A DNA stretch of 64,000 nucleotides, from positions 556,154 through 620,153 of the forward strand of contig DP000238.1 in NCBI GenBank assembly GCA_000200715.1. Reading direction: 5' to 3'. Position 1 is the stretch's first letter. Each line of letters begins with the position of its first letter. Positions 8,232 through 64,000 of the stretch are shown here, one piece after another. The notes below the pieces were generated by a model. It saw only the letters and a program-made list of their open reading frames with translations, was not told the origin of the DNA and did not search any database. Made by a program: the position numbers and the translations under genes. Source of the DNA: Cenarchaeum symbiosum A (GTDB taxonomy: Archaea > Thermoproteota > Nitrososphaeria > Nitrososphaerales > Nitrosopumilaceae).

Positions 8232-8323
8232 CTGGATCTTTGTAAACCGCGTTCTTGCGGCATTCCCGGAATATGACCTGTGGAAGGCTTCGGATGCCCG
8301 TCTGCGCCCCTCGGCAGGCTCCA

Positions 8324-8572
8324 GATGTAGAAGAGCCCCGCACAGAGCCTGTGCCGCGCGACGAGCCAGAACCCATCCAGGACAGGGAGGCCCCGGAGGA
8401 GGAACCGGCGGCAGAACCCGCGGACGAGCCCCGTACAGAGCCTCAACAGGACAGGGAGGCCCCCGAAGACAGGCAGGATTCAGGACCGGAGGCAGAACCC
8501 GCAGGGGATTCCGAGGTGGGCTTCTTTGAGGCGATAGGCAACTTTTTCAGGTCGCCGTTCGGGCTTAACTGA
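8324..8572 (+). pseudogene. orphan C-terminal tail of a surface protein
   Basis: This frame encodes an acidic Pro/Glu-rich linker (EEPRTEPVPRDEPEPIQ and similar) that ends in EVGFFEAIGNFFRSPFGLN and a stop. This is the same linker plus terminal motif found at the ends of the giant surface proteins at 11104, 30206, 42864 and 63102. No signal peptide or folded domain precedes it: upstream sequence belongs to a minus-strand frame. I read it as the 3' scrap of a lost surface-protein gene. Confidence 0.6.
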
Positions 8573-9468
8573 CCCCCGTGAACAGGCGGGAACGTATCCA
8601 AAGTCCGATAAATATCCCAAGTATTCGCAGAGGGACCATGCCTGCACCATGGACACAGACGGCCTATGCAACGAATAGGGACAGTTGTAATGATGCTGGC
8701 AATATATTCTCGGTAGTCAGAGTAGGTGCCACGCCGGTAAGAGGCAATGACACAGTGGACGTAAGGTACGCCTTTGACGTGTCGTCCCCTAGAAACTAGG
8801 CCCGGGTGCTGATTTTACACTTTTCTAAATACAATTCCTGGCCGCATATCGTGTAGACAGGTTATGGCGGGGCGTTCAAGCAGTCGCCGGTTCACGTATA
8901 TTCAAGAGACTGCGGGTTTGCACCTGTACCGTGGGAACCCCCAGTATGTGGAGCTGACCGGACATTGGTAGATTCCGGGCCATAACACTAGCGGGCTTTG
9001 GTGCTGTGCGACCCAGGTACCCATATCACAAGCACGCACCGAGTTTCTGCCTGTATCACTGGTAGGCACTAGAGCCTGTCTAACGCGGATCTGAATTTGA
9101 TCAGAGCATGCATCTTGCATCCTTGAATACATGTAGTTAGGAATGGCGGGGTCCACATTGAACCGCGGCGGGGAGCATGACTTTAGATCTGCCCGCCCTG
9201 AACAGCCGGCCTGGACCGCCACCCGGTCGGAGGGGCCGCCATTTACCCGCAATTCTGCACCGTGAGCTGGAATAGGCCAGAGGGCTGGTTCTGACCGCGA
9301 TTCTGAACAGATCAGCGATTTTGCACAGTTGGCCAGATGTGCCTAGAGGTCCGCACTTTGAGCAGTCAGGCAGGCAATTCCATGATATTGAACAGAGTCA
9401 AAAACTCCCGAACTTAACAGTGTAGTGAAACCGCCCGCAGACTTGCCAGAAGCACGCCTGTCATATGA
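8573..9468. other. long stretch without a convincing gene
   Basis: About 0.9 kb between the surface-protein scrap and the UBA-domain gene. A plus-strand frame at 8578-8799 ends in VDVRYAFDVSSPRN, which resembles the end of the broken gene at 62709-63072 (LDVTYTFNIATPYT), so it may be another secreted-protein tail. From 8820 to 9468 I see no coding pattern, tRNA or ordered repeat; base composition is mixed and it looks like decayed sequence. Confidence 0.45.
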
Positions 9469-11103: not shown

Positions 11104-14100
11104 CTATCCGCCAAACAATGACCGGAACCATTCTACGATCATATCCAGCAGGCCGTCAGGCTCCCCTGTCCCTTCGGGTGAAGGCTCGCTTTCACTTGGA
11201 CCATCAGGCATCGCGCCGGGCCCTGCCGCTGTATCTGCCTCCGGTTCGGCGCCGGGCTCTGGCTCTGCGATGAGAGGCTCCGGAGGCACTTTTGCAGGCT
11301 CTGGCTCTGTGCCCCCGGGCGCCTCCTCGATAATCCCTGCGGGCTCCGGATCAATCTCCAGGACGGGCTCTTCCTGCCCCGTGCTCAGCCTGTACATTGT
11401 ACCCTCATGCGAGAGCAACAGTATGCCGCGGCTGTCCTGCAGCCTGACACTCATTGTCCCCTCAAACTCGCCTTCAAGCGGCACCTCGAGGCTGATCTGA
11501 TCCGAGGAATCAAGCGTGTACCCTGCGTTCTCCTCTGTGATCACCGAGGATACATCACACGCGAATATGCGGTCCGATGAATACGATTCACCGGCGCACT
11601 GCTCGGAGCCGAGCAGCGCGGGGACCGCCGAGTACCTGACGCGTGCATCCTGCTGCCCGCCTGCCCCGTACAGGATTGCCTCCATCCCGAATACCCTTGC
11701 CTCAAAGCTGCCTGATTCTATCTCCGGGGTGATGACTAGGGTGCCGCCCGGTGAGAGGAGTATCCCCGAGGGGGATTCCCTTGCATCCTGCCCTCCCACT
11801 GTGAACCCAAGCGAGGCTGACCTGCCCGCATCTGATCCTGTGAGGATGGAGCCGCCGCCTCCTCCTCCGCCCCCGCCGCCGCCACCGCCGCCCCTGCGCG
11901 GCAGCGGTGCGGGCTGCTGCACGGTGACGGGCTCGGGCGGCGCCGGTGTGAACAGCCCGTACGTGGAGAGCCTGTACGTCCATATTGCAAAATTCTCGCC
12001 GGTATTGAACAGGCAGGCGCCGGCGTCGGCTCCTTGCCCGGGCGCCGACCCGTCTGGGGTGTCGTCGTTGCAGCGAACATCTATCACCGTGGTATTGTTA
12101 GTAGAGTTTATGCGGTATCCCAGGTCTCCCGGCGATCCGACCAGCCCGATCCGGACCGGCGCATCCAGCCCAAGGTCCGCATCGGGCAGGCCCACCTCCA
12201 CGGGTGTGTTCCCGGGATCGCCATCCACATCAGGAGTCCTGGTTGAATTCTGTATGATTATCTGCTGCGTTCCATTGAATCCAGACAGGGTCAGGTTTGC
12301 CGGCAGCAAAAGGGTGACGTTATCTCGGTTGACATTCATCCGGGTGACCGTTATATTCGAGGGAAGGGTTGCGTTGGCATTGTCGGGGCTTTTTACCTGC
12401 TCAAGGTTCAGTATGAGCGGCTTGTCCCGTGTTTCATCATTTAGGCGGACATCGGATATCCCGTCGTGTATTACAAGCAGGTTGCTAGTATCATTTATGA
12501 CTACCTCCCTGTCATCAAGCAGAGCCCTGTCGTTGTCGGTAAGGTTGTATGCATACGCCGCAAGCGTGTTTCCCGCGGGGTCTGCCACGTCTGAAAACCG
12601 TACCGTGATGTTCTGTGCGTTAAAGAGCGCACTGCTTGTGTTTATGAGCAGGTTGCTGCCCGCCACTATCTCCACCATGGGGTTGCTGGCGGATGTGCCG
12701 TTTATCACCAGTATTGTATTGCCGGGGGTGCTGTCAAGCGGCTCGCTGATTGTGGCCACAAGGGTGTAATTTCCAGTGGCCAGGATGCGCGCTATCGAGG
12801 GGACTATGGTGTCGATTACCACGTCTGAGCTGCCCGACAGCGATGAGGCAGAGCCTGGCTGCGGCAGCGTCAGGTCTGCGGGTATTCCGTCATCGGCCGC
12901 CGTTATGCTGCCGTTGCCGGGCACCAGAGCGCCTGTGCTGATATAGGACAGGTCTGGAGAGTTGTGGCCATCTAGCACCGTATAGTTGAAGACAAGCTCG
13001 GCGGTGCCCGAGCCTGACTCAAACGTGGCATTTGCGCCCACGTCAAGCCCGAGCAGCGGGACTCCCGCCACGTTTACGGGCTCGCTAAACGTGATGGTTA
13101 TGGCGACCGTTCCATTCTCTTTTTCAGCGGCGGAGCTGGCCGAGACCGAGCTTACCGTCGGGGTGGTGTGCGCCGAGTCCGCTATGCCCGGGGCATCCGA
13201 TGTATCCAGTAGGATCATGCCCATGCTAGTCTCCGTCTCAAGTATTCCGGGGGCGTCCCCAGTCCCGAGTGATATGGCGCGGAGCACAGTCTCGGAGAAT
13301 GCAGGCGCATCGGTCTCTTGTATAATGCCGTCTTGCATGGCTTCTATCCCGTCAGCCGCGGCCGGGCGGTCCGTTGCACCTATGTGTATCGAAAACATTA
13401 CCACATCAGAGGCCATGGGCGCGTCTGTTCCCTGTGTCATGCCCGACAGGTCCGCGCCAGGTATCTCGGATACGGCAGGCGCGTCCCCTCCTGTCCGTAT
13501 GGCAGTCAGGCTGATATCTGCACGATCTGTAGCGGACGGCTCATCTGCCGCGGCGCGCATCCCCGCCATTGAATTGTCTGTCCTGTCAGATACCGTACTA
13601 TCGGCAATGGCAGGTAAATCTGCCGCGGATATTGCCAGCGATGCAGGGGCCGTCGTACTGTCAGCTGATGCACTATCGGCAATTGCAGGCTCATCAGATG
13701 CGGACCTTGTCAGCGATGTATGGATGGTCGCACCCTCGGTTAAGGGCAGGGCATCTGCTGCATCGCGCATCACCCCCACTGAACTAGCTGTCCCGTTGGC
13801 GGCCACACTGTCGGCCACACTGGGGGAATCAAAAGCGGAGACGCTGACAGACTGTGCTGTGGAGCGCCGCAGCTCATCTGTCGGCACCGGCGAGTCCATG
13901 ACCACTATTGTGATACTCGGGGCCCCCACTGCCACCACTGTTCCAGCAAGTGATGATGCAGATGTGGTGGGCGGCAGGCCCAGCAGCGCGGGAACAGCCG
14001 AACCTGCTGCAGTTATGGATCCTCCCCCGAGCACAAGCGAGTCCTCGTCGACATAGTTGAGGCCCGCCGAGATATCGCCAGAACCCACTGTGTACCCAAA

Positions 14101-17100
14101 GACTATATCCACGGTGCCATTGCCCGAGGAATAGTTGGCCGTTGCCCCGGGTATATCGAGGAGAATATGCGGCATTCCCCCTATGTACACCTCTTCGGAG
14201 AATGTAACAGTAATCGGGACCGTATCCCCTGTATCGTACGTGCCCGCCGGCGCCGCAACCGACAGCACGCGGGGCTCCGCACCCGACTGTACAGAATGGT
14301 ATTCCAAAACGCGTACCTGCACCACCGGGTCTGGCGTGGCTTGCCCCGGGGTCTCTGGTATGAACACGTGTGTCCCGTTGGATGTTATCGAAAAGTGGGA
14401 GTGCCCCGGGGCCGGAACACCAAAATCCTGCAGCAAGCCGCCCTGCAGGCCCATGGCCGCGGCGCCCACCCCGTCTGCAACCAGCATAAAGCCGTCGGAT
14501 ACATGCACGTCGTAGGGGGAGAATGTGCCCCACCCGGGGACCGCCGAGCCGTCAACTGCTCCCCGCGGGGCCCCGCTGGCATTGAACACATGTATCCTAA
14601 AGTTGCCGTTATCGGCCACAAAGATGTGCGTCCCGTTCGATGACACCCCGATGGGCACGCTGAGCTGCCCCGGGCGGGAGCGGTCGGGCATGCCGTCCGT
14701 CCCAAAGGCGATATGGCTGCTGCCGTCTGGCTCAAAGACGGTCACTGTATTATTGAGCAGGCTGGATATTATAATCCCGGGGCCCAGCTCCAGGTCGAAC
14801 GGGATGCCCACCGTATCTGGTATCTCAAAGCTGCCCGTCTGGTTCCCGCTGGGATCCAGCACGTGTATGTTCCCGAGGTGGCTTGCCACCACAATGTTGG
14901 TCCCGTTGACCCCTGCCGCCCGGGGCAGCCACTGTTCCCCGAGTGTCGTCGCATTAACGCGGTCCGCAATATCGAGGGAGCTGTCCAGTATGTCCAGCGT
15001 ATTGTTTCTAAAATCTACAAGAAACAGATGGGTCGAGTTGTGTGCCGCATCGCTCAAGGACGCAAACGGCATCCCGCCGGCGCCTGTCACATTGGCCACA
15101 TTTTGCACCCCGAGGCGCACGTCTGCATCGCGCGCGGATACGGACCCGTACAGGACCACCCTCGGGGGCTCTGCTATCTGCAGGGGCTCAGACAGGGAGA
15201 GGACCACCTCGCTTCCGGAGACTGCCGTATCTGTTACTGTGCCTCCTGTAACGCCAAAGGCCACGGGCCCTGCAGTCGGCGGGTCCACTGCTCTTGTAAA
15301 GCCCACCGTTATGCTCTCCCCGTCGGAAGATAATGCGGCATACTCTGTGTCAAACCCGCCCTCTCCCGCAAAGAACGTATACGAATAGAATACCTTTTGC
15401 GATGAAACCTCGCCGTCTACAAAGTCCATCACCATGTCGTACCCCGCGCCCTCCGGGCCCACAAGCACGGCCCTCTGCAGTATGGATCCCGAATTATCCG
15501 ATGATTCTTGGACCGTCCCGTTGGCCCTCAGGTGCAGATGCACCTCATTGTGGTCATCCCCGTCTGTATCCGCGGTATCGAGCGCCTCTTCGGGCCACCA
15601 GAGCGCGGCGGCCATCTTTTCGGTCCCCCCTGGAATGTCCGGGAGCGGGATCGTCACGTTGCCCGTGGAATTAAACACGTACGTTCCAGAATGCGTCTCT
15701 ATCCTGCCATAGTCCATGCCCATTATCCCCGCGCCCCTCCTCTCGTCCATGCGTATGTCCGAAAAGCTCCCCCCGGTCCCGTCGGCCTGGCTGAGCATCA
15801 TCGCGTATACGTGGCCGGGCTCCAGCACGATACCCTGCCCCTTGTACAATCCAATCATGGTCGCCATCGCGCCTGCTACAGCAGGGGTCGAAAAGCTGGT
15901 CCCGCCGTTGAATCCGGAATATGTGTTCCCCATTGTGGGGAGCGTCATGGGGAATACAGGCGCCACAATCTCGGGCTTTATCCTGCCATCGAGGGTGGTC
16001 CCGTAGTTGTTGGAATCGGAGTTTCTGCCATCCTCGAACACCTGGCCGACAGTAAACACCTTGTGGGAGTCGGCCGTGCCGTTGTAGAACCCCGGATCCT
16101 CAAGGCTGTTGCCCGCCGACCATGTGACTGCTATTCCGTTGTCATAGGCCGCGTCGCCCAGGATGGCATCAGGCCCTGTCCCGTATCCGTCCGCGGGTCC
16201 GCCATAGGATAATGTAAGCACATCCACGCTGGGGGCGGCAGAACTTGAGTTGATAAGCTCGATTACCGCCCTGACCGACCCCCCAAGGTCGGCGTTGCCC
16301 CTAAAGCAGTTCGAGTATATGACCAGCTCCGCGCCGGGCGCAAACCCGCGGAACCTCGGATCAAGCGAGCCCGTGCCCGCCGCCGCCCCCGCCACGTTGG
16401 TCCCGTGGGGGACGCACCCCCTGGGGTCGTCCATACCGTCGGCAGTCACGGTATCCCGGATGTACACCACCTTGGGGTCGTCCGTCAGGGGGTCGTCATC
16501 AAGATCGTCAAGGTCGTCGTGGACCGGCTCGGCTGTGCCTGTGACATTGTCATAGCTTCCAAATACTATGTCAAGGCCGCTGTCTATGCTGGCTATCCTT
16601 GTGCCTTCCCCGCCAAAGCCCGCGTAATACGGGGCGTTTATCCCTGTAGACCTTCTCGACGAGTCCAGCGAGTATTCGTACAGGTACTCTGTCGCCTCTA
16701 TCCTCTCCACCTGTTCTAGCGCGGCTATCCCGCTTATTGCAGATGCCGGGACCTTGGCTGTTATGCCGCCTATGGATGCATGTTTTTCTATCCCTGTCCC
16801 GTTTATCCCCAGGAGGTATTCTGTGACGCGCTCGATGGGCGCGGATATCGCCTCGGCTCTTCTCTCCTTCTCCTCCTGCAACCGGCTGTATACTGCCTCC
16901 ATGTTGTAGTTGTATTCGGCATAGTTTACCTGTATTTTCTCCTGCTCTAATAGTATCAGCACGGAGACGGGCCTGTCTACGGGCACAGAGCAGTCTATAC
17001 CAAAGCGCTCTGTCGCATTATCATCCATGCCGCGGCCGCACATCGGGTGTATGCCTGTTTCTGCGTACCTTTGCAGCTCAGATGACACCTTTGGACGGGA

Positions 17101-17349
17101 TACCTCCTCGGCCTGGAATTGCCGCGGCTGCGCGTATTCCTCCGCTGTAACCTGCACCGGGACTGTGCTGACTGTGATCTCCCCGTCTGTCATCCTGTGG
17201 ACGAGCTGCATATGGGCCTCTTCTGCCTGGGAGTTTGGCGCGCCTGCCAGGACAAGGGCGGCTATTCCAAGGAATGCCGCGAGCCCGGCCATGTAGCCGA
17301 GCCTCCGGGCGCCTGATCCGCGCCGCATGGGGATCTGCCGTCCGTCCAT
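11104..17349 (-). CDS. giant secreted subtilase-family surface protein (paralogue 1)
   Basis: 2081 residues. A signal peptide (about 15-42, AGLAAFLGIAALVLAGAPNS) precedes a pro-region and an S8 subtilase domain with the full triad: Asp256 (RIASIDSGLD), His315 (CVPHGTNVAG) and Ser485 (GGTSFSTPAVAG), with Asn414 as the likely oxyanion residue. Then follow NHL-like repeats (SNGTHIFVADNGNFRIHVF), Ig-like modules (about 1070-1160 and 1450-1560), a Ser/Asp/Pro-rich repeat zone (about 1170-1410), a poly-glycine hinge, a ~120-residue beta domain with two Cys, an acidic Pro/Glu linker, and the terminal motif LLDMIVEWFRSLFGG. Probably an outer-surface protease or adhesin. Its paralogue is at 42864-48737. 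Confidence 0.85.
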   Translation of the reverse strand: MDGRQIPMRRGSGARRLGYMAGLAAFLGIAALVLAGAPNSQAEEAHMQLVHRMTDGEITVSTVPVQVTAEEYAQPRQFQAEEVSRPKVSSELQRYAETGIHPMCGRGMDDNATERFGIDCSVPVDRPVSVLILLEQEKIQVNYAEYNYNMEAVYSRLQEEKERRAEAISAPIERVTEYLLGINGTGIEKHASIGGITAKVPASAISGIAALEQVERIEATEYLYEYSLDSSRRSTGINAPYYAGFGGEGTRIASIDSGLDIVFGSYDNVTGTAEPVHDDLDDLDDDPLTDDPKVVYIRDTVTADGMDDPRGCVPHGTNVAGAAAGTGSLDPRFRGFAPGAELVIYSNCFRGNADLGGSVRAVIELINSSSAAPSVDVLTLSYGGPADGYGTGPDAILGDAAYDNGIAVTWSAGNSLEDPGFYNGTADSHKVFTVGQVFEDGRNSDSNNYGTTLDGRIKPEIVAPVFPMTLPTMGNTYSGFNGGTSFSTPAVAGAMATMIGLYKGQGIVLEPGHVYAMMLSQADGTGGSFSDIRMDERRGAGIMGMDYGRIETHSGTYVFNSTGNVTIPLPDIPGGTEKMAAALWWPEEALDTADTDGDDHNEVHLHLRANGTVQESSDNSGSILQRAVLVGPEGAGYDMVMDFVDGEVSSQKVFYSYTFFAGEGGFDTEYAALSSDGESITVGFTRAVDPPTAGPVAFGVTGGTVTDTAVSGSEVVLSLSEPLQIAEPPRVVLYGSVSARDADVRLGVQNVANVTGAGGMPFASLSDAAHNSTHLFLVDFRNNTLDILDSSLDIADRVNATTLGEQWLPRAAGVNGTNIVVASHLGNIHVLDPSGNQTGSFEIPDTVGIPFDLELGPGIIISSLLNNTVTVFEPDGSSHIAFGTDGMPDRSRPGQLSVPIGVSSNGTHIFVADNGNFRIHVFNASGAPRGAVDGSAVPGWGTFSPYDVHVSDGFMLVADGVGAAAMGLQGGLLQDFGVPAPGHSHFSITSNGTHVFIPETPGQATPDPVVQVRVLEYHSVQSGAEPRVLSVAAPAGTYDTGDTVPITVTFSEEVYIGGMPHILLDIPGATANYSSGNGTVDIVFGYTVGSGDISAGLNYVDEDSLVLGGGSITAAGSAVPALLGLPPTTSASSLAGTVVAVGAPSITIVVMDSPVPTDELRRSTAQSVSVSAFDSPSVADSVAANGTASSVGVMRDAADALPLTEGATIHTSLTRSASDEPAIADSASADSTTAPASLAISAADLPAIADSTVSDRTDNSMAGMRAAADEPSATDRADISLTAIRTGGDAPAVSEIPGADLSGMTQGTDAPMASDVVMFSIHIGATDRPAAADGIEAMQDGIIQETDAPAFSETVLRAISLGTGDAPGILETETSMGMILLDTSDAPGIADSAHTTPTVSSVSASSAAEKENGTVAITITFSEPVNVAGVPLLGLDVGANATFESGSGTAELVFNYTVLDGHNSPDLSYISTGALVPGNGSITAADDGIPADLTLPQPGSASSLSGSSDVVIDTIVPSIARILATGNYTLVATISEPLDSTPGNTILVINGTSASNPMVEIVAGSNLLINTSSALFNAQNITVRFSDVADPAGNTLAAYAYNLTDNDRALLDDREVVINDTSNLLVIHDGISDVRLNDETRDKPLILNLEQVKSPDNANATLPSNITVTRMNVNRDNVTLLLPANLTLSGFNGTQQIIIQNSTRTPDVDGDPGNTPVEVGLPDADLGLDAPVRIGLVGSPGDLGYRINSTNNTTVIDVRCNDDTPDGSAPGQGADAGACLFNTGENFAIWTYRLSTYGLFTPAPPEPVTVQQPAPLPRRGGGGGGGGGGGGGGSILTGSDAGRSASLGFTVGGQDARESPSGILLSPGGTLVITPEIESGSFEARVFGMEAILYGAGGQQDARVRYSAVPALLGSEQCAGESYSSDRIFACDVSSVITEENAGYTLDSSDQISLEVPLEGEFEGTMSVRLQDSRGILLLSHEGTMYRLSTGQEEPVLEIDPEPAGIIEEAPGGTEPEPAKVPPEPLIAEPEPGAEPEADTAAGPGAMPDGPSESEPSPEGTGEPDGLLDMIVEWFRSLFGG

Positions 17350-19245: not shown

Positions 19246-20064
19246 TCAGTTTCCTTTCTCCGACCTGATCGGCTCATCTGGCGCAGCCAGCTCCTCCGGC
19301 GTCGCCCTGTATTTCTTGGGTACCAGAAATGGCTCAACGCTGCCATAAAGTGGCTCTTCAACTTTTCCTACTGGCTCATCTGGCGCAGCCAGCTCCTCCG
19401 GCGTCGCCCTGTATTTCTTGGGTACCAGAAATGGCTCAACGCTGCCATAAAGTGGCTCTTCAACTTTTCCTACTGGCTCATCTGGCGCAGCCAGCTCCTC
19501 CGGCGTCGCCCTGTATTTCTCGGGTACCAGAAATGGCTCAACGCTGCCATAAAGTGGCTCTTCAACTTTTCCTACTGGCTCATCTGGCGCAGCCAGCTCC
19601 TCCGGCGTCGCCCTGTATTTCTCGGGTACCAGAAATGGCTCAACGCTGCCATAAAGTGGCTCTTCAACTTTTCCTACCGCCTTATCTGCCGCGGCCAGAT
19701 CCTCCGGCGTCGCCCTGTATTTCTCGGGTACCGGGAATGGCTCAACGGTGCCATGATGCGACTCTTCAACTTTTCCTACCGCCTTATCTGCCGCGGCCAG
19801 ATCCTCCGGCGTCGCCCTGTATTTCTCGGGTACCGGGAATGGCTCAACGGTGCCATGAAACGGCTCTTCGGTTTTTCGCATCTCCGATCCATCCGGCTCG
19901 CCCGGCATGTCAATTACTGCTTTTAGTATAATTTTAACGGGCACCTCGATTCCATCCGGCTTGCCCGGCATGTCATCTAGTTTAAACTCAAGGGGCATCT
20001 CAATTGTCTTGGCATGACTGTAAAGCATCTTCTCCTTTGCCTTCTTTTCTATCTTGTCTGGCAT
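19246..20064 (-). CDS. tandem 34-residue-repeat protein
   Basis: 272 residues. A basic N terminus (MPDKIEKKAKEKM) and a smaller duplicated segment (DMPGKPDG / DMPGEPDG) are followed by six tandem 34-residue repeats of the pattern VEEPLYGSVEPFLVPEKYRA, TPEELAAPDEPVGK. Repeats 1-2 form one subtype (HGTVEPFPVPEKY, DLAAADKAVGK) and 3-6 another, nearly identical one, so the array has grown recently. No signal peptide or membrane segment. The repeat is proline- and glutamate-rich and probably extended. Function unknown; it sits in the island bounded by transposase-like remnants. Confidence 0.7.
   Translation of the reverse strand: MPDKIEKKAKEKMLYSHAKTIEMPLEFKLDDMPGKPDGIEVPVKIILKAVIDMPGEPDGSEMRKTEEPFHGTVEPFPVPEKYRATPEDLAAADKAVGKVEESHHGTVEPFPVPEKYRATPEDLAAADKAVGKVEEPLYGSVEPFLVPEKYRATPEELAAPDEPVGKVEEPLYGSVEPFLVPEKYRATPEELAAPDEPVGKVEEPLYGSVEPFLVPKKYRATPEELAAPDEPVGKVEEPLYGSVEPFLVPKKYRATPEELAAPDEPIRSEKGN
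19258..19868 (-). repeat. six 102-bp tandem repeats inside the repeat protein
   Basis: Units of 102 bp (34 codons) in head-to-tail order; the four nearest the gene's 3' end are almost identical at DNA level (shared block ATGGCTCAACGCTGCCATAA on the plus strand). The unit length is a multiple of three, so gain or loss keeps the frame. Confidence 0.85.
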
Positions 20065-28377: not shown

Positions 28378-28446
28378 CTTCTAGACCTGCCCTGCTGCCG
28401 ATATTATACATTTTGAATGCATTCTGGCTGTAAAGAATGCCATGGC

Positions 28447-30117
28447 TTAGAGCCCCAGCAGAGAACCAAAGAACTCTGCTATTGCGTCTAGTATGCCGGG
28501 CTCTTCAGACGGGGCCGCGGCATCTGCAAATATATCATATCTATCTGGCAGCTCGTACCTGCTTACAGAATCTCCCCCTACAACAAACATTACAGCGCCT
28601 TCGTCCGCAAAGGCAAGCCCGCTGGCCCGCTGACCCTCAGTATCTAGCGAGCCCATGTATCCCCTCAGGGCGGGGTCGTACGGCCCGCCAAGCTCGTACC
28701 CGTGCACCTCTGTCTCCTCTGATACAAACAAGAGCAGGCCGTCATCAGAGAACTCTATCTCCCAGATTACATCGGAATGCTCCCCCAGATCGTACGAGCC
28801 GTCGTGGACAGGATTAGTTATGTCGTACGGGGCAGACAGGCTGTACCGTTGGATAGAGTCATCTCCCGATATGAGCATCTCTGTTCCCCCTGGGACAAAT
28901 ACTATTCCGCCTGATTCTGTAATGCCCTCTTTGAGCTCAAAGGATCCTGAGTGGATGGGGCCTGTTATGTCATACGGGGCGTATAGATCATACTGCTCAA
29001 TGGAGATGCTCTCCCCCGGATTTCCGTTTCTAGATACAAATAGAACGGTGCCGTCATCTGATGTGGCCATTCCATATGCGCTACCTCCGTCTTTCAGCTC
29101 TGCCGAGCCCGCGTATACCGGACTGGATGTATCGTGCGGGGAGTGAAGGTCATACCGGTGTACCGCGTCGGGACCGGTAGATACGGTAAGCATGATCATG
29201 CCGTCAGATGAAAAGGCCTCGTCGGTTATCTCTGCGGACTGGCCCAGGGGGCCCTGCGGCGCCTCTATCTGTGCCGATGTGATGTCATATTCTCCTGATA
29301 GCGCATACCGACTCATGGAGCTCTCTCCTGCCACGAACAGCTCTGTGCCCCCGTCTGAAAAGGCAAGGCCGCTTGCAGGCTGTTCACCGGTATCAAACGA
29401 TCCCGCATACTCCATGTTGTCCAGGTCGTACGGCCCGCCAAGCTCGTAACTGTGCACGCCGGTCTCTTCTGATGCAAACATGCTCGTGCCGTCATCAGAG
29501 AACTCTATCTCCCAGATGAACTCTGTCTGGTTTAGACCGTACGATGTATCGTGGATAGGGTCTGATATGTCGTATGGGGCGGAGAGCTCGTACCGTAGGA
29601 CGGAGTTGTCCGACGAGACGAACATGACCGTTCCCCCCTGAGCAAAGACTATCCCCCCTGTCTCCGGGGCGTGCAGCTCAAAGAGACCGGCATGCACGGG
29701 GGCTGATATGTCAAACGGGGAAGAGAGATCGTACCTGTGTATGGATGCGGGCCCGGCACGTATACTCTGGTCGGTAGCAGCCATCATCCCCTCCATTCCA
29801 TTCCGTACCACAAACAGGGCGGCGCCGTCGCCTGAAAATGCCATTCCGACAGCGGAACCGCCTTCTTCGAGCCTGAACGAGTCTGAATATTCGGGATAGG
29901 CCGTATCGAACGGAGAAGACAGGGTATAGTGGTATATTGCGTCGGGGTCGGTCACCGACGTGAATGCATCAAGGCCGTCATCTGAGAATACCATGTCGGA
30001 GACGTATGCAAAGGGCCCGAGGACGGTCCTCTCGGGGTTTGCATATGCGGGGGTGGCGATCGCCAGTGCCGCGGCTATCGAAAGGGCAAGGATGCAACCT
30101 GTACTTGGGGTCTTCAT
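28447..30117 (-). CDS. secreted propeller-like repeat protein with terminal sorting-like motif (copy 1)
   Basis: 556 residues from ATG 30117. A signal peptide (MKTPSTGCILALSIAAALAI, cleavage near AYA-N) is followed by about ten ~50-residue repeats of the pattern 'AFSDDGTxMFVxxxxSxxRYxLSxPYDIxxPxxxGSxxL', arranged as two related halves of ~260 residues, consistent with beta-propeller folding. The tail EEPGILDAIAEFFGSLLGL is the short motif shared by the giant surface proteins, here with only a brief acidic linker and no glycine hinge. The frame extends upstream of 30117, but the conserved palindrome and TATA box fix the start. Probably displayed on the cell surface. Confidence 0.78.
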   Translation of the reverse strand: MKTPSTGCILALSIAAALAIATPAYANPERTVLGPFAYVSDMVFSDDGLDAFTSVTDPDAIYHYTLSSPFDTAYPEYSDSFRLEEGGSAVGMAFSGDGAALFVVRNGMEGMMAATDQSIRAGPASIHRYDLSSPFDISAPVHAGLFELHAPETGGIVFAQGGTVMFVSSDNSVLRYELSAPYDISDPIHDTSYGLNQTEFIWEIEFSDDGTSMFASEETGVHSYELGGPYDLDNMEYAGSFDTGEQPASGLAFSDGGTELFVAGESSMSRYALSGEYDITSAQIEAPQGPLGQSAEITDEAFSSDGMIMLTVSTGPDAVHRYDLHSPHDTSSPVYAGSAELKDGGSAYGMATSDDGTVLFVSRNGNPGESISIEQYDLYAPYDITGPIHSGSFELKEGITESGGIVFVPGGTEMLISGDDSIQRYSLSAPYDITNPVHDGSYDLGEHSDVIWEIEFSDDGLLLFVSEETEVHGYELGGPYDPALRGYMGSLDTEGQRASGLAFADEGAVMFVVGGDSVSRYELPDRYDIFADAAAPSEEPGILDAIAEFFGSLLGL

Positions 30118-30139
30118 TCTGATGGCGCCTTGTGGGTGG

Positions 30140-30161
30140 CATAAAAACCCACTTGGGTTTT
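30140..30161 (-). promoter_or_regulatory. TATA box overlapped by perfect palindrome AAAACCCACTTGGGTTTT
   Basis: The palindrome (30144-30161; two 8-bp arms around CT) overlaps the TATA-like TTTTTATG (30140-30147), which is centred 26-27 bases upstream of the ATG at 30117. The same element is at 53510-53527 with identical spacing, and a degenerate form at 35104-35121. I infer a repressor site, since it covers the TBP/TFB region. Confidence 0.7.
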
Positions 30162-30205
30162 CAGTCCGGATCGGTGCCCATGTAGAACGAGACAATATGG
30201 TTCGG

Positions 30206-33200
30206 TCACAGCCCCAGCAGTGACCTAAAGAACTCTGTTATTGCGTCTATTATGCCGGGTTCCTGTCCTGTCTCCACCCGTGCTACCGCGGGAGTGATTT
30301 TCGCAGAATCCTCTGCCCCCGGGACCGTGTCTGATTTTACGGCTTCCACGGGAATAATCGGCTCTGCCTCCGGTTCGGGCTCTGCGGGGACTGGCTCTGG
30401 ATCCATCTCGGGAACTATCACCGGCTCTGGATCCATCTCGGGCTCTACTGCCTGCACCGGGATTATCACCTCCGGCGCGGGTCCCGTATCCAGTGCATTT
30501 ACGGGCACAGATGACGGGTTTATCCTGTATACTTTGTCATGGGAGACAAGTATTATGCCGGAGTTGTCCCGGAGCTGCATGCTCATGGTCCCAGAGAACT
30601 CGCCTTCCAGGGGCACGGCAAGGCTCTCAAAGGAGCCGTCATTATCATCCCTGTATGACGCCCCGGAGGGGGATATCAGCGACTGCACGTCGCACGTGTA
30701 CAGGCTGCCGGATGCGGCCGCATCCCCCTCGCATTCCCTGTCAAAGAACGCCCCTATCCTGTTATAGTATATCTTGGCCTGGCCGTCTTCACTGGATATG
30801 ATGACCTCCATGTCGTATACGTCAAGGTCATCTGCTGACAGGGGGGATATCACCAGGGGCATGTTTGTCCCTATGATTATCTCGGAGCTCCCCCTTGATG
30901 CGTCCTGTCCATCGGCTGTAAACTCCAGCGAGACGTCGCGCCCTATGCTCGTTATACTGGTGGAGGTTCCGCCGCCACCGCCTCCTCCGCCTCCCCTGGG
31001 ACGGGGATCGGGCTGGGGATTGGGTTGGGAAACAGGCTGGGGATCAGGCTGGAGAGTGTTGGACGCAAAAGCAATTTGATGGTCCATGGAAACTGTCTCA
31101 ACCATGGCAGGCGTATCAGGGCCCATCATACCACTCCCGTCTTGGTTTACCGTTGGCTGTGGGATCTGCTCTTTTGGTTCGTACCGGCTTATGGAATCTC
31201 CCCCTGCCACAAAGAGCCCCGTGCCGTCGGCCGAGAAGGCAAGCCCATCGGCCCGCTGTCCTCCGGTATAGAACGAGCCCAGGTATTCCACCTGATCCAG
31301 ATCGTATGCCCTGCCGAGATCATGGCCGTATACGTGCCTGCCCTCCGAGACAAACATGCGCATACCGTCGGCCGAGAACTCCAGCCCCGAGAGCTGACCT
31401 ACATACTCCTCCAGATCGTACGAGCCGGAGGGTACAGGAGAGGTGATGTTGTATGGAGAGGAGAGGCTGTAGCGGCGGATGGATTCCCCGGCAACCACAA
31501 AGACGTGCATGCCTTCCTCGGAAAAGACAATGTCGCCAGTCCCGTGGACACCGTCCAGTTCAAACGAACCGGAGGCGGCGGGCTCGGATATGTCATACGG
31601 GGAGGACAGGTTGTAGCTGTGGACGGAGGCATTCTTGGCTTCCTGAACGTATTGGTTGCTGTTATATCCATACGAGTACTTGTATCCGCCGTATCTGGTC
31701 ACAAATATTGTGCTTCCGTCTGCCGAAAAAGCAATGCCAGCCGCGTCGTCATCGCCCCCCAGCCGGCCCATACCCACATACAGCGGGCTAGTCGTGTTGT
31801 ACGGCGAAGTGAGGTTGTAGCGGTATATGGCATCATGGCCCGCTATACCCGTGAACATGGCCATGCCGTCGGCCGAGAAGGCCACGTCGTAGACACTTCC
31901 GGACGAATCCAAGCCGTTGCGCGAGGTTACAAGCCGAGGTGATGTAATGTCGTACTGTGTCAGTATGTACCGGCTTATGGAATCTCCCCCTGCCACAAAG
32001 AGCCCCGTGCCGTCGGCCGAGAAGGCAAGCCCATCGGACCGCTGTCCTCCGGTATAGAACGAGCCCAGGTATTCCACCTGATCCAGATCGTATGCCCTGC
32101 CGAGATCATGGCCGTATACGTGCCTGCCCTCCGAGACAAACATGCGCATACCGTCGGCCGAGAACTCCAGCCCCGAGAGCTGACCTACATACTCCTCCAG
32201 ATCGTACGAGCCGGAGGGTACAGGAGAGGTGATGTTGTATGGAGAGGAGAGGCTGTAGCGGCGGATGGATTCCCCGGCAACCACAAAGACGTGCATGCCT
32301 TCCTCGGAAAAGACAATGTCGCCAGTCCCGTGGACACCGTCCAGTTCAAACGAACCGGAGGCGGCGGGCTCGGATATGTCATACGGGGAGGACAGGTTGT
32401 AGCTGTGGACGGAGGCATTCTTGGCTTCCTGAACGTATTGGTTGCTGTTATATCCATACGAGTACTTGTATCCGCCGTATCTGGTCACAAATATTGTGCT
32501 TCCGTCTGCCGAAAAAGCAATGCCAGCCGCGTCGTCATCGCCCCCCAGCCGGCCCATACCCACATACAGCGGGCTAGTCGTGTTGTACGGCGAAGTGAGG
32601 TTGTAGCGGTATATGGCATCATGGCCCGCTATACCCGTGAACATGGCCATGCCGTCGGCCGAGAAGGCCACGTCGTAGACACTTCCGGACGAATCCAAGC
32701 CGTTGCGCGAGGTTACAAGCCTAGACAAATCTATGGTAAATGGTATGGGTAATTCATATTCTTGCACATAGTCTTCCTGCAGTATGAACATCTTGGTACC
32801 ATTGCCTGAGAATGCCAGCCCGGTGGCATCATTGTCCTGCAGGTCTATGGATCCTGATCTGTTCAGCGAGGACAGGTTGTACGGCTCGGCTAGGTCGTAC
32901 TGATCCAGCATACTATACTCCATCAAGAACAACCTCGTTCCCTCCGGCGAGAAGGCCATGTCCAGGATTGATGTCTGGATATCTTGCGTTGAGTTGTATT
33001 CCGCCGTGGAGACATCATACGGCACAGGCAGCTTGTATGTCATTATCTGCCTGTAATTAGACACGAACATCATGTCCCCAGTCGTCGAGAAGTAAAGCCC
33101 TGTTCCATAGTAACGCCCGCCATACAAATCATACGATCCTACCTGCCGTGGTGCAATGATCTCGTACGGCTCGGACAGAGAGTATGTGTGCACAGACAAG

Positions 33201-45800: not shown

Positions 45801-48737
45801 TTGACATCCAACGGAACCCATGTGTTTGTCTCAGAGTTTCCAGTTTTTGATGCAACATCCCCGGTAAACCGGGTCCGCGTGTACGAGTACCACACAGTAC
45901 AGGCCACTGGCGCACCCCGTGTGATCTCCGTGACGGCGCCTGCGGGCACGTACGGGAGCGGCGCCACCATCCCAATCACTGTGACATTCTCCGGAGCAGT
46001 GGACGCCACCGGCATCCCACAGCTGCTCCTGAATATACCCGGGGCGGCCGCCAACTATTCCTCGGGCACGGGCACCACAGATCTCGTCTTTGAGTATGCC
46101 GTACTCCAGAATCACAGCTCGCCGGCGCTCAACTATTCCGACGTGGACTCGCTTGTGCTTAATGGCGGCTCTATAACGGCAGAGGGCTCAATAGTGCCGG
46201 CATTTCTGGAGCTGCCGCCCCCTTCGGCTGCATCATCGCTTGGCGGGTCAGGCGTGGTAATAGAGGCGCCGGGGATCATGCTAGTGCTCGTGGACTCGCC
46301 GATGTCATCAGACGGGCTGCGGGTCTCCGCCCCCATGTCCCGCAGCATAGATGTCTCCGATTCCCCCACCCTCTCTGTGATGGTATCTGGGATGGGAATG
46401 ACTTCGGCAGATACAACGGAGACCCCACTCATTGACGACGGGGCCTCGTTGTCCTTGTCCCTTGGTCCTGCCGATACATCGGCAGTGGCCGACAATGCAG
46501 AGGTGGTACTCGGGGGCAAGCCGCGGGCGGCAGACGCACCCGGCACTGTCGAGATTATCTCCCTGTCGGTCTCTATGAGTGCGGAGGAGGGCCCTGTCTT
46601 GTCCGAGATGGTTACCGGCATGGGCACTATATTCCTGGACTTTACAGAGGCGCCCAGCCTGGAAGATGATGCGTACACTGTCCCGAGGGTGCGGTCTGTC
46701 TCTGCCGATTCTTCCGCTGAAAAAGAGAACGGGACAGTCTCCATAACCATCGTGTTTAGCGAGCCCGTAAACGTGACGGGATTCCCGCTGCTCAGGCTTG
46801 ACGTGGGTGATGATGCCAATTATACAACGGGCTCGGGCACCACCAACCTGACTTTCAGCTATACGGTGGACGCGGGCCACAACTCGGGCGACCTATCCTA
46901 TGCTGGAACAGGCGCGCTTGACGGCAACATAACGGCATCCGATGACGGGGCGGCGGCCAACCTTCTGCTGCCCCGTCCCGGCTCCCCGTCGTCTTTGTCT
47001 GGCAGCTCAGACGTGGTAATAGATACTATGGCCCCCGGGATAGTGCGCATCCTGGCCACTGGGCACAACACACTGGAGGCCACGATGAGCGAGCGGCTCG
47101 ATGCGGGCACCGGCAGGGACAACATCACACTTGTAACAACCGGCAACGGCTCTGGCGCCGCCAACGTGACACTGGTGGTCCCGGTGGCAGAAAACAACCT
47201 GCTCATTACTACCGACCACAACCTCACATCGATACAGAACATCACTGTCCGGTTTGCGAACGTGGCAGACCCCGCGGGAAACCCGCTTTCCCCAGGCGAG
47301 TACAGCCTCTCCGATAACGACAAGGCTCTCATTGGCGGGCTGCCACTCAACATAACAGACGCCGACAACCTGCTGGTCATACACGAGGGGATGCCCGGGG
47401 ACCTGCTCATCGAGGACGGCACATCCGGGAATATGCCGCTCATACTATACCTTGGGCTCACTGTGGAGAATGATACCGCCACGCTGCCCCCGTCGGTGAC
47501 CATCCTGTCCGGAGGCTCCACCGTTTTGCTGCCGGCAAACCTGAACCTGACGGGGTTCAACGGCACACTGCAGATAGCCATCGAAGAATCAGACAGGGTG
47601 CCGGACGTGGACGGCACTCCCCAGGACGGCGCCATAGAGGTGGGACTGCCGGATGCGGACCTTGAGCTGGGCAGCCCTGTCAGTATTTCCCTGGGCGGGC
47701 AAGGGGGGAACACCGGATACCGCATAAACTCGGCTGATTCCACCACGCCCATAGACGCACGGTGCACCGCGGATAGAGCGGCAGGCGCTGTTGCACAGGC
47801 AGAGAGCGGCGGAGCCTGCTCGCTGGATGTAGGCGGGAACCTTACGATATGGACATACGGCCTCTCTGCATTTGGCTCGTACATACCCGCGCCCGAGTCC
47901 CGCGCAGATCCGCTGCCTGCGCCAAGGCCGCGCGGGGGCGGAGGAGGAGGCGGGGGCGGCGGAGCCGTCGTCTCCGGCGGCATCACTGGCCAGACCGCCT
48001 CGCTTGGGTTTGCATCCGGAGGGCAGGATGCAAGAGAATCCCCCTCGGGGATACGCATTGCGCCCGAGGGCACGCTCGTCATAACCCCGGAGATAGAATC
48101 CGACGTCTTTGCGGCAAGGGTATTTTCGATGGAGGTGATCCTGTACGGGATGGGCGCCCAAGAAGACGCCCGCGTCAGGTATTCGGCGGTCCCGGTGCTG
48201 CTCAACTCCGAGCAGTGCGACGGAGAATCGCATGTAGAGGACCGCATATTCGCATGCGATGCATCTTCTGTGATCTCGGAGGGGCAGGCCGGGTATACGC
48301 TTGATGCATCGGGCCGGCTGAGCCTCGAGATACCGTTTGAGGGCGAGTTTTCCGGTACCATGAGTGTCATGTTGCAGGACAACCGCGGCATACTGTTGCT
48401 CTCGCATGAGCGGGATGTATACGAGCTAGACGCGGGGCAGGCAGCGGGGCCATCCTTGGAGGCATCCAGTGCGGATGAGCCCGGCGACGGGCCCGTCGTA
48501 ATGCAAGAGCCTTCGCCGGAGGAAGCCGTTCCACAGGATCCCGCCGCGGAGGCGTCCATGGATGCCGAGCCTGAACCAGAGCCTCTGGTGCCCGCAGAGC
48601 CTGATGATGCAGAGCCGCGCGTCGTACCTGCAGAGCCCGGAATACCCGGGGATCCCCCTGCAGTGCCCGCAGAACCGGGGCCTACCGACCTGCTTGGCAT
48701 GATTGTCGAATGGTTTGCGTCACTGTTTGGCAGATGA
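42864..48737 (+). CDS. giant secreted subtilase-family surface protein (paralogue 2)
   Basis: 1957 residues from ATG 42864 (MIAISASLVFLSVLVAFSAG, a signal peptide); an open frame extends upstream to 42681 through the 17-C tract but lacks a secretory start. The S8 domain keeps the triad: Asp244 (RIATIDSGLD), His302 (CAPHGTQVAG), Ser474 (SGTSFATPAVAG). Next are NHL-like repeats (SNGTHIFVADNFNFRIQVF), Ig-like modules, a shorter Ser/Asp/Pro repeat zone than paralogue 1, a poly-glycine hinge, the ~120-residue two-Cys beta domain (RIFACDASSVISE), an acidic linker, and the tail LLGMIVEWFASLFGR. Together with the gene at 11104 it forms an old duplicated pair. Confidence 0.85.
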   Translation: MIAISASLVFLSVLVAFSAGAPYSQAEEGHIQLVHRTIDGELAVSMVPVPVTSVETFEPPRQFQLEADPGAKISPALQRYAETGVHPMCGRDMDEQAELRFDIDCSVPGDFENRYTSVLIMLKQERRAVNYAEYNYDMETVYGLLREEGARRSEAVAAPTESVKEYLGSNNATGIEVYSAIGGVVAQVPGSLMPGIAALEWVESVDITEYLSPLLLDSTRRSTGINYLYDGGFGGNGTRIATIDSGLDIVDGSYDNVAFTADIAHDDLDDLDDDPNTDDPKVVYIRDVSFDGFDNPVYCAPHGTQVAGVAAGTGSIDSRFRGFAPYAELIVYTACFDDDIDTLAALIAIDDLINNTLEAPDEGADVLTLSFGGLGEGYGTGLDALFGDLAYDSGIAVTWAGANELPDARFFNDSADGHKMFTVGQTFEDGSNTDSSNYGVTLDGRIKPEIVVPVNPITLPTVGNTYAGGISGTSFATPAVAGAMATMIGLYKEQGLVLEPGHVYAMILSQADGTGRGNFTDIHMDDRRGAGVMGMDYGRMETRSGSHMFSSTGSVTIPLVDIPERTERITAALWWPEEALDTETFDGADHNEIHLNLRLNGAAEVSSTNPDSVLQRLVLEDPVAGSSGYDLVIDFVGGEAPPQQVFYSYTLFSEQDEFAVDYAALAPDGGSIRMGFSREVDPSSAGAAAFGVPGSSVTGTVVSGSEVLLSLSDPLPVDKPPEITLYGSVAPRNGDERLAISEVAGITDVGGVPLGTIFDIAHNSTHFFLTDNDNPTLHIFDDALDPVDLVDETSLGEAWSPTGVGVNGTHIVVASNLGRVHVLDPSGNPADSFDISGILTTTYDLALGPGIIVSDPTNGTVTVFEPDGSGYIAFGNDSQADPSDAGQFFIPLGVSSNGTHIFVADNFNFRIQVFDGSGTLRDILDGFTVPEWSFLFPRDVYVSGDIMLAVDDFGSAVISRQGDILQQFGRPTQGHVPDTLTSNGTHVFVSEFPVFDATSPVNRVRVYEYHTVQATGAPRVISVTAPAGTYGSGATIPITVTFSGAVDATGIPQLLLNIPGAAANYSSGTGTTDLVFEYAVLQNHSSPALNYSDVDSLVLNGGSITAEGSIVPAFLELPPPSAASSLGGSGVVIEAPGIMLVLVDSPMSSDGLRVSAPMSRSIDVSDSPTLSVMVSGMGMTSADTTETPLIDDGASLSLSLGPADTSAVADNAEVVLGGKPRAADAPGTVEIISLSVSMSAEEGPVLSEMVTGMGTIFLDFTEAPSLEDDAYTVPRVRSVSADSSAEKENGTVSITIVFSEPVNVTGFPLLRLDVGDDANYTTGSGTTNLTFSYTVDAGHNSGDLSYAGTGALDGNITASDDGAAANLLLPRPGSPSSLSGSSDVVIDTMAPGIVRILATGHNTLEATMSERLDAGTGRDNITLVTTGNGSGAANVTLVVPVAENNLLITTDHNLTSIQNITVRFANVADPAGNPLSPGEYSLSDNDKALIGGLPLNITDADNLLVIHEGMPGDLLIEDGTSGNMPLILYLGLTVENDTATLPPSVTILSGGSTVLLPANLNLTGFNGTLQIAIEESDRVPDVDGTPQDGAIEVGLPDADLELGSPVSISLGGQGGNTGYRINSADSTTPIDARCTADRAAGAVAQAESGGACSLDVGGNLTIWTYGLSAFGSYIPAPESRADPLPAPRPRGGGGGGGGGGAVVSGGITGQTASLGFASGGQDARESPSGIRIAPEGTLVITPEIESDVFAARVFSMEVILYGMGAQEDARVRYSAVPVLLNSEQCDGESHVEDRIFACDASSVISEGQAGYTLDASGRLSLEIPFEGEFSGTMSVMLQDNRGILLLSHERDVYELDAGQAAGPSLEASSADEPGDGPVVMQEPSPEEAVPQDPAAEASMDAEPEPEPLVPAEPDDAEPRVVPAEPGIPGDPPAVPAEPGPTDLLGMIVEWFASLFGR

Positions 48738-51749: not shown

Positions 51750-51818
51750 CTTCTAGACCTGCCCTGCTGCCGATGTTATGCATTTTGAATGTATTCTGGC
51801 TGTAAAGAATGCCATGAC

Positions 51819-53483
51819 TTAGAGCCCCAGCAGAGAGCCAAAGAACTCTGCTATTGCGTCTAGTATGCCGGGCTCTTCAGGCAGGGTCGCGGCATCTGCA
51901 AATATATCATATCTATCTGGCAGCTCGTACCTGCTTACAGAATCGCCCCCGACAACAAACATTACAGCGCCTTCGTCCGCAAAGGCAAGCCCGCTGGCCC
52001 GCTGACCCTCAGTATCTAGCGAGCCCATGTATCCCCTCAGGGCGGGGTCGTACGGCCCGCCAAGCTCGTACCCGTGCACCTCCTCTTCTTCGGCGACGAA
52101 CAAGAGCAGGCCGTCATCAGAGAACTCTATCTCCCAGATTACCTCGGAATGCTCCCCTAGATCGTACGAGCCGTCGTGGACAGGATTAGTTATGTCGTAC
52201 GGGGCAGACAGGCTGTACCGCTGGAGAGAGTCATCTCCCGATATGAGCATCTCTGTACCCCCCGGGACAAATACTATGCCGCCTGATTCTGTAATGCCCC
52301 CTTTGAGCTCAAAGAATCCTGAATGTATGGGGCCTGTTATATCGTACGGGGCGGATAGCTCATACTGTTCAATGGAGATGCCCTCCCCCGGATTTCCGTT
52401 TCTGGACACAAACAGGATGGCGCCGTCATCCGATGCGGCCATTCCATATGCGGCGCCGCCGTCTTTCAGCCCTGCCGAGCCTGTATACACAGGACTGGAT
52501 GTATCGTACGGGGATGCAAGGTCATAGCGGTGTATCGCGTCGGGGCCGGTCGTTATAGTAAGCATGATCATGCCGTCAGGCGAAAATGCCTCGTCTGTTA
52601 TCTCTGCGGACTGTCCCAGGTGGCCCTGCGGCGCCTCTAGTCTTGCTGATGTGATGTCATATTCTTCTGATAACGCATACCTGCTCATGGAGCTCTCGCC
52701 TGCCACGAATAGTTCTGTGCCCCCGTCTGAAAAGGCAAGGCCGCTTGCAGGCTGTTCTTTTGTATCAAACGAGCCCGCATACTCCATGCTGTCCAGGTTA
52801 TACGGCCCGCCAAGCTCGTAACCGTGCACGCCGGTCTCTTCTGATGCAAACATGCCCGTGCCGTCATCAGAGAACTCTATCTCCCAGATGAACTCTGTCT
52901 GGTTTAGGCCATACGAGGAATCGTGGACGGGGTTGGATAGGCCGTACGGGGAGGATAACTCGTACCGGTGGATGGAGTTGTCCGCCGAGACGAACATGAC
53001 CGTTCCCCCCGGCGCAAAGGCTATCCCCCCTGTCTCCGGGGCGGGCAGCTCAAAGCGTTCGCCCCGCTCGGGGGCCGATATGTCAAACGGGGAAGAGAGA
53101 TCATACTTGTGTATGAATGCGGGCCCGGCACCCCCGCTCTGGATGGCATCCACACCTTCCATTCCGTTCCGGGCCACGAACAGGTCGGTGCCGTCGCCTG
53201 AAAATGCCATTCCGACAGCGGAGCCGCCATATTCGAGCCTGAAAGAATCCGAGTACACCGGCCAGGTCGTATCGTACGGCGAAGACAGGGTATAGTGGTA
53301 TATTGCATCGGGGTCGGTCACCGATGCGAATGCATCAAGGCCGTCGTCAGAGAATACTATGTCGGATACGTATGCAAAGGGCCCGAGGACCGTCCTCTCG
53401 GGGTCTGCATATGCGGGGGTGCTGATCGCCAGTGATATGGCTATCGAAAGGGCAAGGATGCAGCCTGCACTTGGGGCCTTCAT
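51819..53483 (-). CDS. secreted propeller-like repeat protein with terminal sorting-like motif (copy 2)
   Basis: 554 residues from ATG 53483 (signal peptide MKAPSAGCILALSIAISLAI). It has the same two halves of five ~50-residue repeats (FSDDGLDAFASVTDPDAIYH, LSSPYD) and the same tail GILDAIAEFFGSLLGL as the protein at 28447. An upstream in-frame extension to 53627 is untenable because it crosses the shared promoter. Compared with copy 1, differences cluster in exposed-looking loop positions of the repeats. Probably a cell-surface protein. Confidence 0.78.
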   Translation of the reverse strand: MKAPSAGCILALSIAISLAISTPAYADPERTVLGPFAYVSDIVFSDDGLDAFASVTDPDAIYHYTLSSPYDTTWPVYSDSFRLEYGGSAVGMAFSGDGTDLFVARNGMEGVDAIQSGGAGPAFIHKYDLSSPFDISAPERGERFELPAPETGGIAFAPGGTVMFVSADNSIHRYELSSPYGLSNPVHDSSYGLNQTEFIWEIEFSDDGTGMFASEETGVHGYELGGPYNLDSMEYAGSFDTKEQPASGLAFSDGGTELFVAGESSMSRYALSEEYDITSARLEAPQGHLGQSAEITDEAFSPDGMIMLTITTGPDAIHRYDLASPYDTSSPVYTGSAGLKDGGAAYGMAASDDGAILFVSRNGNPGEGISIEQYELSAPYDITGPIHSGFFELKGGITESGGIVFVPGGTEMLISGDDSLQRYSLSAPYDITNPVHDGSYDLGEHSEVIWEIEFSDDGLLLFVAEEEEVHGYELGGPYDPALRGYMGSLDTEGQRASGLAFADEGAVMFVVGGDSVSRYELPDRYDIFADAATLPEEPGILDAIAEFFGSLLGL

Positions 53484-53505
53484 TCTGGTGGCGCCTTGCG
53501 GGTGG

Positions 53506-53527: not shown

Positions 53528-53616
53528 CACAGCCCTGATTAGTGTCCGCTCTGGTTCTTGCTAGTATACGCCTCTGGAATCCGCAGGACAGTGTGAGGCG
53601 AAATTCGCATAAAAGC

Positions 53617-63101: not shown

Positions 63102-64000
63102 TCACAGCCCCAGCAGTGATCTGAAGAACTCTGTTATTGCACCCATTATACCATGTTCCTGCCGGGATTCGGATTGTCCGGTTTCCACCTGCGTTGCTGC
63201 AGGAGTGGGGGCTTCAGGATCCTCAGCGCCGGTGGCCGTGTCTGATTCTTCATGCTCTGTGAGCGTGATCGATTCCACCTCCAGTTTAGACTCTGCGGAA
63301 ACGGTCTCGGGCTCTGGATCCATCTCGGGTTCTGGGACTGCCACCGGCTCTGGATCCATCTCAGGTTCCAGTACCACCTGTACCGGGATTATCACCTCCG
63401 GCGCGGGTCCCGTATCTGGTGCATTCACGGGTGCAGATGACGGGTTTATCCTGTATACTTTGTCATGGGAGGCAAGTATTATGCCGGAGTTGTCCCGGAG
63501 CTGCATGCTCATGGTTCCAGAGAACTCGCCTTCCAGGGGCACGGCAAGGCTCTCAAAGGAGCCGTCACTATCATCCCGGTATGACGCCCCGGAGGGGGAT
63601 ATCAGCGACTGCACGTCGCACGTGTACAGGCTGCCGGATGCGGCCGCATCCCCCTCGCATTCCCTGTCAAAGAACGCCCCTATCCTGTTATAGTATATCT
63701 TGGCCTGGCCGTCTTCACTGGATATGATGACCTCCATGTCGTATACGTCGAGGTCATCTGCTGACAGGGGGGATATCACCAGGGGCATGTTCGTCCCTAT
63801 GATTATCTCGGAGCTCCCCCTTGATGCGTCCTCTCCATCGGCCGTAAACTCCAGCGAGACATCGCGCCCTATGCTCGTTATACCGGTGGAGGTTCCGCCG
63901 CCACCGCCTCCTCCGCCGCCCCTGGGGCGGGGATCGGGCTGGGGATTGGGTTGGGAAACAGGCTGGGGATCAGGCTGGAGAGTGTTGGACGCAAAAGCAA
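63102..64000 (-). CDS. C-terminal part of a second giant surface protein (continues past the window)
   Basis: About 300 codons in view. They match the end of the 1623-residue protein at 30206 almost exactly through the Pro-rich stretch (DPQPVSQPNPQPDPRP), the glycine run, the two-Cys beta domain (FFDRECEGDAAASGSLYTC) and the start of the acidic linker. The linker then differs in sequence but not in composition, and the tail GIMGAITEFFRSLLGL keeps the terminal motif. The first ATG in view (63788) is internal; the true start lies beyond base 64000. Confidence 0.85.
   Translation of the reverse strand, partial: AFASNTLQPDPQPVSQPNPQPDPRPRGGGGGGGGGTSTGITSIGRDVSLEFTADGEDASRGSSEIIIGTNMPLVISPLSADDLDVYDMEVIISSEDGQAKIYYNRIGAFFDRECEGDAAASGSLYTCDVQSLISPSGASYRDDSDGSFESLAVPLEGEFSGTMSMQLRDNSGIILASHDKVYRINPSSAPVNAPDTGPAPEVIIPVQVVLEPEMDPEPVAVPEPEMDPEPETVSAESKLEVESITLTEHEESDTATGAEDPEAPTPAATQVETGQSESRQEHGIMGAITEFFRSLLGL

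Follow-up and report, generated by a model that had tools for sequence, protein, structure and literature searches.

A near-private C-terminal tail shared by about thirty giant proteins of Cenarchaeum symbiosum A, most with a Sec-like start, a putative surface-retention signal

Why do the large surface proteins encoded by one stretch of the Cenarchaeum symbiosum A chromosome end in variants of one short motif, and does this tail act as an anchoring signal? We addressed this question in a window of 64,000 nucleotides (the whole stretch analyzed, positions 556154 to 620153 of contig DP000238.1, assembly GCA_000200715.1), which belongs to a single-contig genome of 2,045,086 bases, hereafter G000. 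A first-pass annotation had listed six long proteins (at 11104, 28447, 30206, 42864, 51819, and 63102) and a scrap at 8324 ending in an acidic linker plus [ILM]-x-E-[WF]-F-x-S-[LF]-[LF]-G. It had noted the absence of a transmembrane (TM) span of the type found in PEF/PGF-CTERM signals and had proposed that an amphipathic terminal helix could be a new sorting or S-layer anchoring signal.

Translation of the window confirmed the presence of the tail at all seven places, and the observation is correct and larger in scale than originally stated. The features identified in the window were the following.

8295..8583 (+), orphan 3'-end fragment (linker plus tail FFEAIGNFFRSPFGLN), a 91% DNA copy of the 3' end of the ORF ending at G000:1532797, 0.97 Mb away
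11104..17349 (-), ORF of 2081 aa with a Sec-like start, subtilase S8, Big_5, and the module at its C terminus
11107..11151 (-), tail helix LLDMIVEWFRSLFGG of this subtilase ORF (stop 11104-11106)
11152..11376 (-), Pro/Glu-rich acidic linker, 75 aa
11377..11850 (-), two-Cys domain (predicted beta), the copy in the subtilase ORF
11851..11892 (-), glycine run before the domain
28450..28494 (-), tail helix ILDAIAEFFGSLLGL on a 582-aa beta-propeller-like ORF without the two-Cys domain
30209..30253 (-), tail helix IIDAITEFFRSLLGL of a 1623-aa ORF
30254..30511 (-), acidic linker, 86 aa
30512..30967 (-), two-Cys domain
47964..48437 (+), two-Cys domain of the second subtilase ORF (42681/42864-48737)
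48438..48689 (+), acidic linker, 84 aa
48690..48734 (+), tail helix LLGMIVEWFASLFGR (stop 48735-48737)
51822..51866 (-), tail helix ILDAIAEFFGSLLGL on the second beta-propeller-like ORF
63105..63149 (-), tail helix IMGAITEFFRSLLGL; the ORF runs out of the window
63150..63437 (-), acidic linker, 96 aa
63438..63893 (-), two-Cys domain

Several details of the first-pass annotation required correction. The glycine run, two-Cys domain, and Pro/Glu linker assigned to the long proteins are present in four of the six (11104, 30206, 42864-48737, and 63102), whereas the two beta-propeller-like proteins (28447 and 51819, 86.5% identical to each other) carry the tail on a short linker only. The gene given as 42864 is on the + strand, with its tail at 48690-48734. 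The motif's Gly is followed by 0 to 9 residues rather than 0 or 1 (0 residues in 4 tails, 1 in 19, 2 in 3, 3 in 2, and 9 in 2, of 30).

To determine whether the tail exceeds chance expectation, the genome was scanned with a degenerate DNA pattern for E-[WF]-F-x-S-[LF]-[LF]-G plus stop. The pattern had 9 hits, all of which were in frame at a protein C terminus, against none for the pattern read backwards. In 60 relatives, 4 hits were obtained against 4 backward hits, which is chance level. A profile built from the first nine tails returned 29 rows at E<=10 in the genome, 28 of which were located 0 to 8 residues before a stop, the other being an internal partial match in a permease-like ORF. A profile of seven two-Cys domains detected 33 domain copies in 32 ORFs, the ORF at 405841-408015 having two. 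A 28-row tail profile had 32 matches, corresponding to 29 of these 32 ORFs, the two propeller-like proteins, and the scrap. Of the three remaining ORFs, one has the tail YLGMLVEFLRSALGL in another frame following a frameshift in its linker (this is the ORF with two tandem domains; region G000:407400-408700), one has an extended degenerate version, and one has a divergent end. The 32 open frames add up to 99,070 codons, or 14.5% of the genome, the largest being of 12,016, 10,048, 7,622, and 6,886 codons. The cargo is varied and includes subtilase S8, Big_5, NHL, plastocyanin-like, Ig-like, and gluconolactonase-like propeller regions.

Alignment of 29 tails, leaving out one near-copy (locus L021) and one unmatched tail (locus L078), extended over 14 columns without gaps. 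The columns were hydrophobic, hydrophobic, mostly D/E/G, x, I (27/29), x, mostly D/E/G, F/W (28/29), F (23/29), R (24/29), S (25/29), L (24/29), F (22/29), and G (25/29), indicating that conservation exceeds mere hydrophobicity. The helical moment of the mean hydrophobicity profile peaked at 100 degrees per residue, and 2 of 5000 joint column permutations reached the observed mean moment. None of 30 C-terminal 70-mers reached a mean KD of 1.6 over 19 residues (maximum, 1.26), indicating the absence of a TM-like span. The linker contains 23% Pro, 19% Glu, and 15% Ala, has a net charge of -5 to -30 (29 linkers) and no Cys, and is 79.8 +/- 6.4 aa long (n = 30; range, 67 to 96 aa). Each of the 29 domains has exactly two Cys. 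A Sec-like hydrophobic start was found near the beginning of the open frame in 26 of 32 ORFs, one of which (L162) is doubtful on visual inspection, against 7 of 92 inner control blocks. At least two of the six ORFs without such a start (L159 and L161) appear to be cut from an upstream frame.

The tail is under selection. Over all 406 pairs of copies, pS and pN were 0.735 and 0.292 for the tail (pN/pS = 0.40), 0.618 and 0.387 for the domain (0.63), and 0.697 and 0.457 for the linker (0.66). The copies are therefore old at synonymous sites, which are saturated, and the tail is the most constrained of the three parts, although these pairs are paralogs of one genome and are not independent. In the 251 pairs with a domain identity under 45%, mean identity was 0.45 in the tail and 0.37 in the domain, the linker value (0.35) being inflated by its Pro/Glu/Ala composition. 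In one recent duplicate pair (30206-31205 versus 63102-64000), the DNA of the domain and of the tail remains 95% alike, while the linker between them no longer aligns end to end.

Two AF2 runs performed with the four window rows gave beta-sandwich models of low confidence (mean pLDDT of 54.5 and 55.5), the longer model having an unstructured linker and a C-terminal helix at 239-251. Fold comparison of these low-confidence models returned immunoglobulin V-set-like matches (VIA-align Z up to 8.6, rmsd 2.9 over 109 residues; Foldseek E 1.2e-3), with 6-13% sequence identity in the VIA-align rows and a Z near the level common to unmatched models, so that the resemblance is a lead only. No Pfam or NCBIfam hit covers the domain, and its comparison with solved chains returned only one row, at E 1.2 and unrelated.

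We next investigated whether the module is a feature of the lineage, since absence from the lineage had been set beforehand as grounds for rejecting the sorting-signal proposal. The tail profile matched in 2 of 250 family genomes, the own genome included. In the second of these, G010, which belongs to another genus, a Pro/Glu linker and tail (...PLVPDPIPEPEAEEFESIFDAIINWFRSLFGG) end a 53-codon frame cut by the contig end (contig C63). The domain was not found in G010, which a fragmented assembly may explain, although three weak partial matches were obtained at E 0.02-0.09 among relatives of G010. The best homologue of the subtilase, considered as a possible ortholog with another tail, is also in G010 (contig C12, 39% identity) but fills its whole contig without a stop, leaving no C terminus to compare. 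The domain profile matched in 1 of 400 order genomes, the own genome, in a search in which only 9 first-look candidates were scored for some genomes. It matched in 2 of 101 relatives, the own genome included, the second match covering 34 residues with an inner stop in genome G090 (E 0.009) and being unconvincing. No domain match was obtained at E<=10 in four chosen genomes, including the single same-genus genome, which lacks both domain and tail. Peptide patterns detected no relative in collections of genome contigs and viral contigs, from which the own genome may be left out. Short frames of 17-34 codons ending like the tail (E 0.002-0.02), with similar surrounding DNA, were found in three genomes of another genus (G069, G082, and G202; loci L128, L129, and L131). 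They had no shared start, a base being missing in the G202 copy, and were treated as chance, although a conserved noncoding stretch is also possible. Three weaker matches (in G287, G306, and G342) were not at recognizable C termini and were dropped. These grounds for rejection therefore largely apply to Nitrososphaerota as a whole, but not to this genome.

Known C-terminal surface signals of archaea (PGF-, PEF-, and PEFG-CTERM) rest on a transmembrane stretch and a sortase-like enzyme. Like PEFG-CTERM, the tail is a short C-terminal signal shared by several exported proteins of one genome. However, scanning of five window proteins for PEFG-CTERM (TIGR04296) revealed no match at E<=1. The genome has eight PEFG-CTERM matches, and the five whose places are listed are none of the module C termini. 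PEFG-CTERM matches occur in 42 of 61 genomes, whereas the tail is nearly confined to one. A search with PF09721 detected no archaeosortase in the genome at E<=1e-3, but this was a lack of sensitivity, since a thaumarchaeosortase is encoded at G000:336405-337331 (L014:14406-15332; TIGR04297, 488 bits for a cut-off of 250), a few kb from a broken module-bearing subtilase gene (327-333 kb). This enzyme, the only archaeosortase found, is 67% identical to that of G003, a relative without the tail. The identification of the tail as an archaeosortase substrate was rejected on motif and TM span, and the tail is thus a module parallel to PEFG-CTERM. No LPXTG motif with a TM span and a basic end was found on reading 29 of the C-terminal sequences. 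Type I secretion relies on an uncleaved C-terminal signal in proteins without an N-terminal Sec signal, in contrast to the Sec-like start of 26 of 32 ORFs. In the S-layer protein of Nitrosopumilus maritimus (NmSLP), which has Ig-like domains, the membrane-proximal C terminus is highly acidic, a property with which the acidic linker is compatible, and the last Ig-like domain is speculated to provide anchoring (PMC11153153). An expanded set of S-layer proteins has been noted in C. symbiosum, with a suggested role in adhesion or recognition (PMC6790972), and an S-layer was unconfirmed in this organism as of 2017 (PMC5744192). The tail was not mentioned in the passages seen of these publications, nor described in the titles or abstract openings returned by literature searches on archaeosortases of Thaumarchaeota, thaumarchaeosortase, PEFG-CTERM, Cenarchaeum surface and giant proteins, the Nitrosopumilus S-layer, and C-terminal amphipathic helices.

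Together, these results partly support the initial interpretation. They support a shared, selected, amphipathic C-terminal helix devoid of a TM span on exported proteins of different kinds and distinct from PEFG-CTERM, but they do not support a distribution across Nitrososphaerota (two genera of those searched) or a dedicated sortase. We favor a surface-retention module, with a probability of about 0.5. The analysis establishes a single architecture (glycine run, two-Cys domain of ca. 150 aa, Pro/Glu spacer, and amphipathic helix of ca. 15 residues at the extreme C terminus) on 30 or so ORFs with otherwise different N-terminal parts, most of which start with a Sec-like signal, together with stronger purifying selection on the helix than on the domain or the linker. 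Export, anchoring, and binding are inferred from sequence alone. In this view, Sec would export the protein, the disordered acidic spacer would act as a tether of roughly fixed length reaching through or under the S-layer, and the helix would dock by its Phe/Leu/Ile face and the near-fixed R-S-L-F-G end onto one common envelope receptor (S-layer or membrane protein), holding the giant proteins on the cell beside, not through, the PEFG-CTERM/thaumarchaeosortase route. The occurrence of the tail on two propeller-like proteins without the domain is in favor of this reading. No receptor or enzyme was found, however, and the very limited distribution prevents co-occurrence tests and is odd for a basic anchoring device. 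More tentatively, the tail may represent a new class of prokaryotic surface-sorting signal, i.e., a TM-free, uncleaved docking helix read by an unidentified envelope receptor, which evolved in a narrow archaeal lineage beside the existing archaeosortase route and spread onto some 30 giant proteins whose genes take up about a seventh of the genome. A genome that keeps the archaeosortase system gives a far larger share of its coding capacity to proteins ending in this different, TM-free signal. If the tail is a docking peptide, its receptor is a single protein that organizes nearly all giant surface proteins of a sponge-associated archaeon, and the module could be used to display cargo on archaeal cells. 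A single 17-residue profile also provides a simple means of recognizing these proteins in sponge metagenomes.

Among the alternatives, a direct in-plane membrane anchor, in which the helix would lie in the outer leaflet of the membrane by its hydrophobic face without any protein receptor, is unlikely but survives best. The strong amphipathicity, the large aromatic/aliphatic face, the extreme C-terminal position, and the absence of a TM span are in favor of this possibility. In contrast, the Arg, Ser, and Gly of the polar side are nearly fixed, which a lipid would not demand and which argues for a protein receptor, the tail net charge is 0 or -1 in 25 of 29, and no basic face is present. Self-assembly of tails into a short helical bundle or coiled coil, joining giant proteins into surface fibers or bouquets, is less likely still. 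Hydrophobic positions 1, 5, 8, 12 and 2, 9, 13 resemble heptad spacing and one tail is shared by many partners, but a motif of ca. 15 residues is short for a stable bundle and tail-tail contact does not by itself explain retention. A functionless tail carried along by recent paralog expansion or gene conversion is very unlikely, since synonymous sites are saturated and the tails keep a lower pN/pS than the domain and are more alike than the domains in distant pairs, even though many module genes are clearly paralogous, some are tandem, and an orphan 3' fragment exists. A membrane-active peptide directed against sponge-cell or competitor membranes, suggested by an amphipathic, Phe-rich helix on exported proteins of a sponge-associated lineage, is equally improbable in view of the nearly neutral or negative charge, the acidic linker, and a conservation that is specific rather than compositional.

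Other duplications and repeats were observed. The propeller-plus-tail genes belong to a two-gene block present at 26290-30195 and 49659-53627 of the window, in which each lies next to a gene for a 695/696-aa protein of unknown family (96% identical). A PAPS-reductase-like gene is present twice (window 39620-40459 and L018:3908-4747; 92% identical). Finally, the window encodes at 19246-20064 a protein of tandem repeats of ca. 33 residues (EEPLYGSVEPFLVPEKYRATPEELAAPDEPVGK) without an NCBIfam match.
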